In this document: positions 29,018 to 40,959 of the stretch, one piece after another
How positions within the stretch are numbered: the stretch's first letter is position 1
How the letters are laid out: the number at the start of each line of letters is the position of its first letter
Made by a program: the position numbers and the translations under genes
The notes under the pieces: generated by a model
What the model saw: only the letters and a program-made list of their open reading frames with translations
What the model was told of the DNA's origin: nothing
Database searches by the model: none
DNA from: Glutamicibacter nicotianae
GTDB taxonomy: Bacteria > Actinomycetota > Actinomycetes > Actinomycetales > Micrococcaceae
Direction of reading: 5' to 3'
DNA length: 40,959 bases
Assembly: GCF_006539525.1 (NCBI RefSeq)
Contig: NZ_BJNE01000020.1
Location: forward strand, 1 to 40,959

Positions 29018-29075
29018 TTGACGCATCAATTATCTCCTGTATAGTGGGATTTGGCAAGAGATGATGACGTGTCAA
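29018..29075 (+). promoter_or_regulatory. FMN reductase promoter with two MarR-operator-like sites
   Basis: TTGACG (29018-29023), 16 bases, TATAGT (29040-29045) form the promoter. TTGACGCATCAA (29018-29029) covers the -35 box. ATGACGTGTCAA (29064-29075) matches the reverse complement of the first site at 9 of 12 positions. Two such sites around a promoter fit repression by the adjacent MarR protein; this is inferred. Confidence 0.6.
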
Positions 29076-29112
29076 CTAAAGTGGTTGGCCGCAGAGCTCC
29101 AAGGAGATTGAA

Positions 29113-29688
29113 TTGTCGAAGATCGCTATCGTTACCGGTTCCACCCGTCCAGGCCGCGTCAACCAGTCTGTCGCGCATTGGGTTCTGGCCAAGGCCGAGG
29201 AATTCGGCGGTGCCGACTATGAGCTGGTGGACATCGTGGATTTCAACCTGCCGATTCTCGATGAGCCCTTCCCGGCCGCCTACCAGAACTACCAGAACGA
29301 CCACACCAAGGCCTTCGCCGCCAAGATGAGTGAATTCGACGGCTACATTTTCATTGTTGGCGAGTACAACCACTCTGTCCAGCCTGCCTTGGCCAACGCG
29401 CTGAGCTACTTGAATGCCGAGCTGAACAACAAGGCCGCAGGCATGGTCGGCTACGGTTCCGCCATGGGTTCGCGCGCGGTGGAGCACTTGCGTGGAATCC
29501 TCTCCGAACTGCAGATCGCCCATGTGCAGAAGACCGGCATGTTCTCGCTGTTCACCGACTTCGAGAACTTCTCCACCTTCGCACCGACCGAGCAGTCCGC
29601 TGGCAGCGTGCAGCCGATGTTAGAGCAGCTTCTGGCCTGGAGCAAGGCCATGGCGACCGTGCGCGACAGCGCCTCGGTCAACGCCTAA
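29113..29688 (+). CDS. NAD(P)H-dependent FMN reductase (flavodoxin-like)
   Basis: This 191-residue enzyme has the flavin phosphate loop GSTRPGRVNQSV near the N-terminus, LPILDEPFP, and the family motif VGEYNHSVQPALANALSYL, followed by GYGSAMGSRAVEHLR. Such proteins reduce FMN, quinones or azo compounds with NAD(P)H. The start is TTG at 29113, six bases after AAGGAG; no ATG or GTG fits. The adjacent MarR gene and operator-like sites suggest induction by electrophiles, and the next gene is a quinone-conjugate reductase homologue, so the two may act in the same detoxification, although a terminator separates them. Confidence 0.88.
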   Translation: MSKIAIVTGSTRPGRVNQSVAHWVLAKAEEFGGADYELVDIVDFNLPILDEPFPAAYQNYQNDHTKAFAAKMSEFDGYIFIVGEYNHSVQPALANALSYLNAELNNKAAGMVGYGSAMGSRAVEHLRGILSELQIAHVQKTGMFSLFTDFENFSTFAPTEQSAGSVQPMLEQLLAWSKAMATVRDSASVNA

Positions 29689-36207: not shown

Positions 36208-36409
36208 AGACGGATGGCGGGAGAGTCCCGTTCACACCATGGACGGGCGCCGTAGGAGCAATTCCTCCCCAGGAAACTCTCAGGCACCCGTACCGCCATC
36301 ATGAGGCAACTCTGGAAAGAAACCGGCCCGTTCCGGTTCACCGAAGGTGCAAGTACCCGGCTTGGTTTGCTGGATGCGTAAAACTCTCAGGTTATGCAAC
36401 AGGGATGGG
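36208..36409 (+). ncRNA. Tandem glycine riboswitch
   Basis: Two glycine aptamers stand in series. The first (about 36211-36298) contains GGATGGCGGGAGAGT, GCGCCGTAGGAGCAA and CTCTCAGGCACCCGTACCG. The second (about 36308-36408) contains TCTGGAAAGAAACCG, CCGAAGGTGCAAG and AAACTCTCAGG, then CAGGGATGGG. These are the conserved glycine-aptamer core elements. The RNA activates the downstream glycine cleavage genes when glycine is high, as known for this class. A small hairpin after it (GGGGAGGT 36407-36414 with ACCTTCC 36421-36427, followed by TTT) may be the switching element. Confidence 0.92.
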
Positions 36410-37415
36410 GAGGTAAAAAGACCTTCCTTTGGCATGCGCCAAGACAGATCCCATGGAGATACCCGCACCATGACCATCACGCAGACTTCGGCACCAGCGA
36501 ATACTGAATTCGTCTCCCGCCATATCGGCCCGCGTCCTTCCGACGTCGCCACCATGCTTCAGAGCCTGGGCTACGACAGCCTGGAAGCACTGATCGACAC
36601 CGCCGTTCCGGCAGACATCCGCCAGGACTCCGCACTGGATATCCCTGATGCGCTGAGCGAAACCGAAGCCTTGGCCCACCTGCGTGCGCTTGCCTTGAAG
36701 AACGTCATGAAGACCCAGATGATCGGCCAGGGCTTCTACGACACCATCACCCCAGCCGTAATCCGCCGCAACATCGTGGAAAACCCTGCCTGGTACACCG
36801 CCTACACCCCGTACCAGCCAGAAATCTCCCAGGGCCGCCTCGAAGCCCTGCTGAACTTCCAGACCATGGTCATGGACCTGACCGGCCTGCCGATCGCCAA
36901 CGCTTCGCTGCTGGACGAATCCTCGGCCGCCGCCGAAGCCGTGCTGATGATGCGCCGCGCCAACAAGAAGAAGGCCAAGGGCAAGACCGTCCTGGACTCC
37001 AACATCTTCCCGCAGACCTTGAAGGTCGTGCAGGGCCGCGCCGACGCGCTGGGCTTCGAGATCGAGGTCGCCGACCTCTCCGCAGGCCTGCCCGAGGGCG
37101 ACATTTCCGGCATCGTGCTGCAGCAGCCGGGCAATGACGGCTCGATCGCCGACCACGCCTCGATCATCGCCGCCGCCAAGGAAGCCGGCGCCATGGTGAC
37201 CGTGATCGCCGACCTGCTGTCGCTGACCATGATCACCCCTCCGGGCGAGCAGGGCGCCGACATCGCCGTGGGCAACACCCAGCGCTTCGGCGTGCCGCTG
37301 TTCTTCGGCGGACCGCACGCAGCCTACATGGCTGTTGCCGACGGCCTGACCCGCTCGATGCCAGGCCGCCTGGTGGGCGTCTCGGCCGATGACGCCGGCG
37401 TTCCCGCCTACCGCT

Positions 37416-37452
<37 letters not shown>

Positions 37453-37471
37453 GAAGGCCACTTCCAACATC

Positions 37472-37474
37472 TGA
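37472..37474 (+). other. In-frame TGA at the conserved Cys codon of gcvP
   Basis: The codons around it read ATC-TGA-ACC-GCG-CAG, which gives SNI-stop-TAQ. GcvP proteins are strongly conserved as SNICTAQ/SNICTSQ. A single C-to-A change from TGC explains it. The next ATG in frame is at 37508, with no good ribosome site. Confidence 0.9.
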
Positions 37475-37477
37475 ACC

Positions 37478-37503
37478 GCGCAGGCCCTGCTGGCCATCTG
37501 CGC
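37478..37503 (+). other. Hairpin starting four bases after the gcvP TGA
   Basis: GCGCAG (37478-37483) pairs with CTGCGC (37498-37503). GCC/GGC inside (37484-37486 with 37492-37494) leaves a 5-base loop CTGCT and a 3-base bulge. Position and size resemble a bacterial SECIS element, but the loop lacks the usual GU motif and the bulge is on the 3' side. It may be chance in GC-rich coding sequence. Confidence 0.35.
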
Positions 37504-38476
37504 ATCGATGTACGCCGTCTACCACGGTCCTGCCGGCCTGAAGCAGATCGCAACCCGTGCCAACAACCACGCCCGCGTGATCGCCAGCTCGCTGGTCGCA
37601 GGCGGCTTCACCCTGGCATCGGATACCTTTTTCGACACCGTTGTGGTGAACGTCGAGAACGCCGATGCCATCATTTCCAAGGCCGTCGAGGCAGGCATCA
37701 ACCTGCGCAAGGTGGGCGAAACCCAGGTGGGCATCTCCACCGACGAAACCACCACCTCCGCCGTGGTCAAGACCCTGCTTGAGGTCTTCGGCGTGCAGCT
37801 GTCGGCTCCGGAAGGCTTCGAGCTGCCCGAGGCCATGGTGCGCACCAGCGACTTCATGACCCACCCGATCTTCAACTCGATCTCCTCCGAGACCCAGATG
37901 ATGCGCTACCTGCGCCGCCTCTCGGATCGCGACCTGGCGCTGGACCGCACCATGATCCCGCTGGGCTCGTGCACCATGAAGCTGAACTCGGCCGCCGAGA
38001 TGGAATCCATCACCTGGCCTGAATTCGCATCCATCCACCCGTACGCACCTGCCGCGCAGACCGCCGGCTGGCGCGAGCTGATCACCGACCTGGAAGGCCG
38101 CCTGACCGCCATCACCGGCTACGCAGGCGTCTCCATCCAGCCGAACGCCGGCTCGCAGGGCGAGTACGCCGGCCTGCTGGCCATCTCGGACTACCACCGT
38201 TCGCGCGGCGAAAGCCAGCGCGACCTGTGCCTGATCCCTGCATCCGCGCACGGCACCAATGCCGCTTCGGCGGTGCTGGCAGGCATGCGCGTGGTCGTCG
38301 TGAAGACCGCGGCCGATGGCACCATCGACGCCAATGACCTGGATGCCAAGATCGAGGCCAACAAGGACGTCCTTGCCGCCATCATGATCACTTACCCATC
38401 CACCCACGGTGTCTACGACGCCGACGTGCGCGAGGTCTGCGACAAGGTCCACGCCGCCGGCGGCCAGGTGTACATC

Positions 38477-38508
<32 letters not shown>

Positions 38509-38548
38509 GGCCCAGCCGGGCAAGTTCGGCGGCGACGTGTCGCACCTG

Positions 38549-38589
<41 letters not shown>

Positions 38590-39329
38590 TCCGGGCGTTG
38601 GCCCGATCGGCGTGGGCGAGCACCTGCTGCCGTTCCTGCCGGGCGACGCCTCGGGCACCTACTCGGAGCGCGACGGCGTGCCGGTCGTGGCAACCGCCTT
38701 CGGCTCGGCCGGCGTGCTGCCGATCTCCTGGGCCTACATCGCGATGATGGGCGGCGACGGACTGACCGAAGCCACCAAGCACGCGATCCTGAACGCGAAC
38801 TACATCGCCAAGCGCCTGGGCGAGCACTTCCCGATCCTGTTCACCGGCAACCAGGACCTGGTCGCCCACGAATGCATCCTGGACCTGCGCGAACTGACCG
38901 CCAAGACCGGGGTCACCGCCGAGGACGTGGCCAAGCGCCTGATCGACTTCGGCTTCCACGCGCCAACCCTGTCCTTCCCGGTCGCCGGCACCCTGATGGT
39001 GGAGCCGACCGAGTCCGAGGACCTGGCCGAGATCGAGCGCTTCATCGAAGCCATGATCACCATCCGCCAGGAAATGGACGAGGTGCTCTCCGGTGCGTAC
39101 AGCATCGAGGAATCCCCGCTGCGCAACGCTCCGCACACGGTCTCGGCAGTGGTCAACAGCAACTGGGACCGCAAGTACTCGGTGGAGCAGGCAGCCTTCC
39201 CGGTAGCCAGCCTGAAGTTCGACAAGTACTTCCCAACCGTGGGCCGCATCGACGGCGCCGGCGGCGACCGCAACCTGATCTGCTCCTGCCCGGCTCCTGA
39301 AGCCTTCGAAGACTAAGGAAGAGTTAGAG

Positions 39330-40457
39330 ATGACTGAGACTACCCAAGCACTCAAGCGCACCGCACTGCACGCCCAGCATGAAGCTTTGGGCGCGAACTT
39401 CACCGACTTCGGCGGCTGGGACATGCCGCTGAAGTACGGCTCGGAACTGGCAGAGCACAAGGCCGTGCGCTCCACCGCCGGCCTGTTCGACCTGTCCCAC
39501 ATGGGCGAGGTCTACCTCACCGGACCGGAGGCCGGCGTCGCGCTGAACACCGCGCTGGCAGGCAACCTGAGCATCATGAAGGTCGGCAAGGCGAAGTACT
39601 CGCTGATCCTGAACGCCGAGGGCAAGATCATCGACGACCTGATCGTCTACCGCCTGGAAGAGGAGAAGTTCCTCGTCGTGCCGAACGCCGGCAATGCCCC
39701 GGTGGTCGCCGCCGAGCTGGCAGCCCGCGCCGCTGATTTCGATGTAGTCGTGGACGACGCATCGGGCCGCCAGTCGCTGATCGCGGTCCAGGGCCCGAAC
39801 GCCGAGGCGATCGTGAGCAAGCTGGCCGCCGACGAGGCAACCGCCCAGGCCGTCGCAGTGCTGAAGTATTACGCGGCTGTGAAGCTGGTGCTCGGCGGTA
39901 TCGACGTGCTGCTGGCCCGCACCGGCTACACCGGCGAGGACGGCTTCGAGCTGATCATCGAGAACGAGGATGCGGCAGCCCTCTGGGAGAAGACCGTTGA
40001 GGCAGGCAAGGACCACGAGCTGGTTCCTTGCGGCCTGGCCGCCCGCGACTCCCTGCGCCTGGAAGCCGGCATGCCGCTGTACGGCAACGAGCTGTCCCTG
40101 GAACGCACCCCGTTCGATGCGGGCTTCGGCCCGGTGGTTTCCTTCAAAAAGGAAGAGAACTTCGTGGGCCGCGAGGCACTTGAAGCGCTGCGTGGCACCA
40201 CTCCGCCACGCAAGCTCGTGGGCCTCAAGGGCCTGGGCAAGCGCGCCGGCCGCGGCGGCTACTCCATCGTCAAGGACGGCACCGTCATTGGCGAAATCAC
40301 CTCCGGCCAGCCATCGCCAACGCTGGGCTACCCGGTGGCGCTGGGCTACGTGGATGCCGAATTCAGCGCAACCGGAACCGAGCTGGAGGTCGATCTGCGC
40401 GGTAAGACTTTGCCATTTGTCGTAGTCGAACTGCCGTTCTACACCCGAGCCAAGTAA
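39330..40457 (+). CDS. gcvT: Glycine cleavage system T-protein (aminomethyltransferase)
   Basis: The 375-residue enzyme transfers the methylene group from aminomethyl-lipoyl GcvH to tetrahydrofolate and releases ammonia. Landmarks are LHAQHEALGANFTDFGGWDMPLKYG, the conserved DLSHMGEVYLTGPEA, the folate-site region ARTGYTGEDGFEL, CGLAARDSLRLEAGMPLYGNEL and GEITSGQPSPTLGYPVALGYV. Length and motifs are normal for the family. AAGGAAGAG precedes the ATG, 13 bases after the gcvP stop. It depends on the glycine riboswitch upstream, and the TGA in gcvP could reduce its expression by polarity. Confidence 0.95.
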   Translation: MTETTQALKRTALHAQHEALGANFTDFGGWDMPLKYGSELAEHKAVRSTAGLFDLSHMGEVYLTGPEAGVALNTALAGNLSIMKVGKAKYSLILNAEGKIIDDLIVYRLEEEKFLVVPNAGNAPVVAAELAARAADFDVVVDDASGRQSLIAVQGPNAEAIVSKLAADEATAQAVAVLKYYAAVKLVLGGIDVLLARTGYTGEDGFELIIENEDAAALWEKTVEAGKDHELVPCGLAARDSLRLEAGMPLYGNELSLERTPFDAGFGPVVSFKKEENFVGREALEALRGTTPPRKLVGLKGLGKRAGRGGYSIVKDGTVIGEITSGQPSPTLGYPVALGYVDAEFSATGTELEVDLRGKTLPFVVVELPFYTRAK

Positions 40458-40517: not shown

Positions 40518-40898
40518 GTGAGTAAAGTTCTTTCGTCATTGCGCTACTCGGCTGAGCACGAGTGGATCGATGCATCGTCCCCAGCAAAGATCGGCATCAC
40601 CCAGGTTGCCGCTGACGCCCTGGGCGACGTGGTCTACGTCGACCTGCCAGAGGTTGGCGACACCGTGACCGCAGGCGAGACCTGCGGCGAGGTCGAGTCC
40701 ACCAAGTCGGTCTCCGACCTGTACTCGCCAGTGACCGGCACCATCGTTGAGGTCAACCAGGAAGCCGTGGACAACCCGGCCATCCTGAACGAGGATCCAT
40801 ACGGTGCCGGCTGGCTGTTCACCGTTGAGGTCACCGAAGAAGGACCGCTGCTCTCGGCAGCAGATTACGCAAGCGCGAACGGTGGAAACGTCGAGTAA
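40518..40898 (+). CDS. gcvH: Glycine cleavage system H-protein
   Basis: The 126-residue lipoyl carrier has the lipoylated Lys63 in [18 protein letters not shown], after the conserved AEHEWI near residue 12 and the [22 protein letters not shown] stretch. It shuttles the aminomethyl group between P-, T- and L-proteins. The start is GTG at 40518, with GGGAGAGG upstream. It is the third gene of the operon, 60 bases after gcvT. Its stop overlaps the next start by one base (TAATG). Confidence 0.96.
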
Positions 40899-40959
40899 TG
40901 AGCAACCAGACTTTTGAAACCGTTGCCTCGAGCTCGCTGACCCAGTCGCTGGCATCGCT
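40898..40959 (+). CDS. glyA: Start of the next operon gene, probably glyA (serine hydroxymethyltransferase), cut by the window end
   Basis: The ATG at 40898 overlaps the gcvH stop (TAATG). The 20 visible residues read [12 protein letters not shown] and then SLTQSLAS. The end of this stretch resembles the leader before the SLAxLDPE region of serine hydroxymethyltransferases, which often follow gcvH in Micrococcaceae and use the methylene-tetrahydrofolate made by GcvT. Twenty residues are too few for a firm call. L-serine dehydratase is the main alternative. Confidence 0.45.
   Translation, partial: MSNQTFETVASSSLTQSLAS

Follow-up and report, generated by a model that had tools for sequence, protein, structure and literature searches.

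The gcvP gene of a Glutamicibacter nicotianae draft genome is interrupted by a single in-frame TGA, most likely the result of a recent inactivating mutation or of a base error, an ordinary event of an already known kind, and no new code. Our preferred explanation, which we consider probable, is that a nonsense substitution, recent and, in the sets examined, peculiar to this genome, converted the codon of Cys335 to UGA and inactivated GcvP. The stop is unique in the sets examined, the remainder of the gene is intact, and neither selenocysteine (Sec) nor suppressor genes were found in the genome.

The draft comprises 43 contigs and 3,554,887 bases with an estimated completeness of 99.99%, and the window analyzed here is one whole contig of 40,959 bases. 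On its forward strand the gcvP frame runs from an ATG at 36470 to a TAA at 39314-39316, i.e. 948 codons, with the TGA at 37472-37474 as the sole internal stop; this is codon 335 and reads SNI*TAQ. The 334 codons before the TGA (36470-37471) correspond to most of a GcvPA-type half (the NF001696 model matches residues 22-439), and codons 336-948 with the terminal TAA (37475-39316) are open and conserved, with equal length and no second internal stop relative to 17 congeners. When read through, the 948-residue product matches the NCBIfam model TIGR00461 (gcvP) over residues 17-940 with 1325.7 bits (cut-off 859.2) and shares 97% identity with its counterpart in the sister genome G011 and 83-95% with the proteins of the remaining 16 congeners. 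An earlier note on this DNA had described one TGA at the Cys codon of a SNICTAQ motif in an otherwise undamaged gcvP; frame and congener comparison agree on the single lesion, and the same codon is TGC or TGT in the 17 other genus genomes. No second gcvP copy was detected in the genome at E<=0.001, DNA similarity elsewhere being limited to two stretches of 29-45 bases. We thus have a single-copy gene bearing a premature stop that is not present in relatives, the combination expected of a nonsense allele.

The surrounding locus holds a glycine cleavage cluster in which, as for gcvP, gene names follow NCBIfam matches. Downstream lie intact gcvT (39330-40457, forward strand; TIGR00528, 349.1 bits, cut-off 235.85) and intact gcvH (40518-40898, forward strand; TIGR00527, 139.5 bits, cut-off 115.85). 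Upstream of gcvP there is a glycine riboswitch aptamer (RF00504; 36208-36305, forward strand) scoring 69.1 bits against a gathering threshold of 32; Rfam listed no second glycine aptamer in this upstream region up to E=1, and the segment 3' of the first (36306-36469), in which aaactctcagg is repeated, resembles a second aptamer by eye. In the congener G001 the gcv gene order continues with two more genes, which we take from their translations to be glyA and sdaA; in the window, only about 20 codons of the first of these (glyA-like, 40899-40959) precede the contig end. In four other drafts of the genus, too, the contig ends no more than about 2 kb from gcvP (G011:C3, G009:C5, G010:C3 and G017:C24), and a second, similar glyA copy is perhaps the cause of the break inside the glyA-like gene. 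Antisense to the whole of gcvP runs an open frame of 1036 codons (36392-39502, reverse strand) that resembles the shadow frames of GC-rich genes.

Codon 335 falls at a site of reported regulatory interest. As counted from the alignment with the Synechocystis P-protein (4lgl), it aligns with residue 353, and position 938 with residue 972. According to the passage of PMC8727733 that reports the work of Hasse et al., Cys972 and Cys353 form a disulfide by which the C terminus is locked and the active site shielded; the suggestion that the interrupted codon is the one linked to redox control in cyanobacteria is borne out by this alignment and that passage. Every one of the 18 genus genomes keeps Cys938, and 17 of them keep Cys335. 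If the TGA is read through, the protein aligns with the full-length Synechocystis GcvP over residues 6-947, sites 335 and 938 included, the difference being that codon 335 is a stop in the Glutamicibacter gene.

The stop does not recur among relatives. In the 17 other genus genomes codon 335 is TGC (10) or TGT (7), and in none is gcvP interrupted. Among 98 loci, 80 of them named actinobacterial ones and the other 18 from the genomes of the genus (at least seven of the 80 derive from the same assemblies), TGA occupies the position once, in the source genome, and TGC or TGT in the remaining 97. A class-wide search of 394 genomes with a motif pattern of 23 effective bases returned the TGA form from the source genome only, the TGC/TGT form from 350 and neither from 43. 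A family-wide search found a gcvP match at E<=1e-100 in 293 of 295 genomes and, among the matches listed, no internal stop other than that of the source genome. The same TGA was looked for and is absent from the 17 congeners and from the class genomes with the motif; nor was a UGA that is kept, or that alternates with Cys, seen in homologues, TGA being found in the source alone among the 394 genomes.

Comparison with G011 indicates that the stop is young or not real. Before the stop, differences at the first, second and third codon positions number 8, 4 and 51, and after it 20, 9 and 115, a pattern of constraint on both sides. When changes were polarized with the outgroup G001 (52 codons were not polarized), the source branch carried 14 amino-acid changes, the stop aside, to 62 synonymous ones and the sister G011 6 to 55 (Fisher p 0.22); if selection is relaxed, the sole hint of it is this 14 versus 6, which is not significant. 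An old pseudogene was ruled out by the lack of any gap or second internal stop in gcvP.

The principal rival to a real mutation is a consensus base error in the draft, with the strain carrying an ordinary Cys codon, which we regard as a substantial minority possibility. One substitution in an otherwise clean gene is equally well explained by error, the assembly is a 43-contig draft whose gcvP stop lies 3.5 kb from a contig end, and all 17 congeners have a Cys codon here. Against it, substitutions are a rarer type of assembly error than homopolymer indels, and damage elsewhere is scant, which suggests that errors are not frequent in this assembly. No other interrupted long gene was seen between 2456 and 40959 of the window relative to G011, or in approximately the same stretch relative to G001; many short or opposite-strand frames with stops were taken by eye as shadow frames. 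Where the gaps in a frame were not a multiple of three, as in gcvP, the frame was flagged and its stops were left uncounted; gcvP was settled by the equal-length comparison, and the other flagged long genes were judged by eye from ORF length. One frame (29064-29687) has an unbalanced 1-base gap near its start in this comparison. The window and a 400-kb sample of the genome were also scanned for in-frame stops flanked on each side by at least 70 stop-free codons, a requirement that misses stops near gene ends. Thirteen of the best 25 candidates were TGA, with that of gcvP second by score. Ten of the 12 other TGA candidates, viewed in full, look like antisense shadow frames, and the four of these ten that were scanned with Pfam gave no match; the assessment of the other six, of the remaining two and of the 12 TAA or TAG candidates was by eye alone. 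No convincing second interrupted gene emerged from the 400-kb sample.

The coincidence of a stop with a conserved cysteine, which the earlier note had considered rare for random nonsense mutations, depends on the reference set. Counting all one-step nonsense paths in gcvP, 9 of 209 start from Cys codons (4.3%, or 3.6% with transitions doubled), so for stops of any kind the claim stands at about 1 in 23. It fails for TGA: 9 of the 16 paths that give this stop start from Cys codons, which makes a Cys codon the commonest origin of a single substitution to TGA. The cysteine is also not singular in its conservation, as eight of the nine Cys positions are Cys in every genus genome, the stop aside, and the ninth (position 657) has one Thr, so that 'highly conserved' describes nearly every Cys in GcvP. 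A chance of about 1 in 23 is weak for a finding chosen from the whole window.

Insertion of Sec or Cys at the UGA by recoding, which would yield a redox-tuned P-protein, is in our estimation barely conceivable, even though the site is a reported redox Cys and UGA is the Sec codon. A search of the genome, 99.99% complete by estimate, for the Sec genes returned none over the family cut-offs. The best match to the SelA model scored 13.7 bits (cut-off 267.9) and is SufS, that to SelB scored 184.9 bits (cut-off 242.25) and is EF-Tu, and that to SelD scored 47.1 bits (cut-off 125) and is ThiL; in 14 control genomes these models exceeded their cut-offs in 1, 2 and 2, respectively. For tRNA-Sec (selC), with 150 of 721 first-look candidates scored, the best match reached 41.6 bits, below the cut-off of 47, and is a tRNA-Gly; it was again not found in the source genome in the family-wide search. 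The tRNA-Sec search was positive in 5 of 14 control genomes, and in 3 of 14 when run family-wide. In the literature searched, the sole paper that mentions both Glutamicibacter and selenocysteine appears to concern selenium nanoparticles and contains each word once.

Other routes to UGA decoding fared no better. All 54 tRNA matches over the cut-off were covered by ARAGORN loci and none has a UCA anticodon, so that no opal tRNA to act as a UGA-to-Cys suppressor was found. An altered position 24 of tRNA-Trp characterizes the classical opal suppressor. The tRNA-Trp of this genome has a CCA anticodon and, by eye, G24 and a 5-bp anticodon stem, and is thus neither that suppressor nor the form with a 4-bp anticodon stem described in PMC13092985. 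RF2 is intact (484.4 bits, cut-off 370). Of the 128 long ORFs that the window and the 400-kb sample yielded, some of which may be false, 40 end in TGA. Global reassignment of UGA was ruled out on the strength of the intact RF2, the normal tRNA-Trp and the common use of TGA as an ORF stop. In the same 128 ORFs, false ones possibly included, TAG is the commonest stop (59, with 40 TGA and 29 TAA), which seems unusual for a GC-rich actinobacterium.

The Sec trait does occur in the family, a point in favor of recoding: of the 120 family genomes examined, 31 carry tRNA-Sec (L198, L199, L200 and G003 among them), scattered across 13 of 32 sampled genera and including one genome of Glutamicibacter, so that it seems likely to have been gained or lost repeatedly. 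Codon 335 is nevertheless TGC in the tRNA-Sec-positive congener G003, and the 13 of the 31 positive genomes that are among the gcvP matches listed are each free of internal stops, which indicates that a sense codon is retained at this site by those Sec users that were seen. One positive genome, G029, yielded neither the TGA nor the TGC/TGT form of the motif. A hairpin (GCGCAG...CUGCGC) is predicted 3' of the UGA and could be taken to favor recoding when folded from 12 nt before the UGA (z -1.88 versus shuffles). It is no stronger than shuffles when folded from the UGA itself (z -0.70), and G007 and G015, both of which have TGC, are predicted to form the same inner hairpin. It provides no evidence for recoding; as a SECIS candidate it is not peculiar to this allele.

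The gcvP stop resembles known recoding systems only in its position. As in bacterial selenoproteins with Sec at a Cys site, a UGA is aligned with a conserved redox Cys; unlike them, it comes with no selA, selB, selC or selD over cut-off, no allele-specific hairpin and no recurrence. It shares a UGA at a Cys site with the opal-decoding systems based on selC-like tRNA-Cys, described in PMC7609411, whereas no UCA-anticodon tRNA was found here. Sec recoding was rejected for want of machinery over cut-off and of recurrence, and of the three explanations originally put forward, fresh pseudogene and sequencing error both stand and the third, recoding, is left unsupported.

A split P-protein was also considered, in which the fragment of residues 1-334 and a product restarted at Met347 would assemble in the manner of GcvPA and GcvPB. 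Both pieces are open, and an ATG (37508-37510, forward strand), at which a 602-residue frame and a possible restart begin, follows the TGA after 11 codons. We think this very unlikely: the natural GcvPA/GcvPB junction lies near 439-472, some 100 codons later, and the first domain itself is what the stop divides; by eye, the Met347 ATG has no clear ribosome-binding site ahead of it; and the state is seen in one genome.

We return to a recent private nonsense substitution, the explanation we prefer. Here a single substitution would have turned the Cys335 codon into UGA, at which RF2 would terminate to release a 334-residue fragment with no second domain and with a first domain that lacks its C-terminal part. 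Such a fragment would leave the glycine cleavage system with no working P-protein, although GcvT and GcvH are still encoded; codons 336-948 would probably be untranslated, or translated only in traces. If, as we infer, the base is real and termination dominant, GcvP activity would be lost. Serine hydroxymethyltransferase can supply one-carbon units from serine, so the loss may be tolerable in many media. The base after the UGA is A, a context in which, according to work cited in PMC5289835, tRNA-Trp tends to misread UGA in E. coli. Traces of full-length GcvP, with Trp the probable residue at 335, are therefore plausible. That the UGA is usefully decoded with neither selABCD nor a UCA tRNA, e.g. 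by context-enhanced misreading of UGA-A that gives small amounts of a GcvP lacking the redox-locking Cys, strikes us as highly improbable. The case matches nonsense alleles and young pseudogenes of bacterial metabolic genes in its one private stop, clean remainder and intact neighbors, and no difference from them was found.

The main lesson of the case is that a TGA at a conserved Cys does not in itself signal recoding. Decoding of the UGA would mean that a redox enzyme is tuned at the Cys that acts as its switch, in an organism with no Sec genes; the present evidence speaks against this. If the TGA is real, this would be a natural strain predicted to do without glycine cleavage, a small fact for the physiology and metabolic models of the genus.
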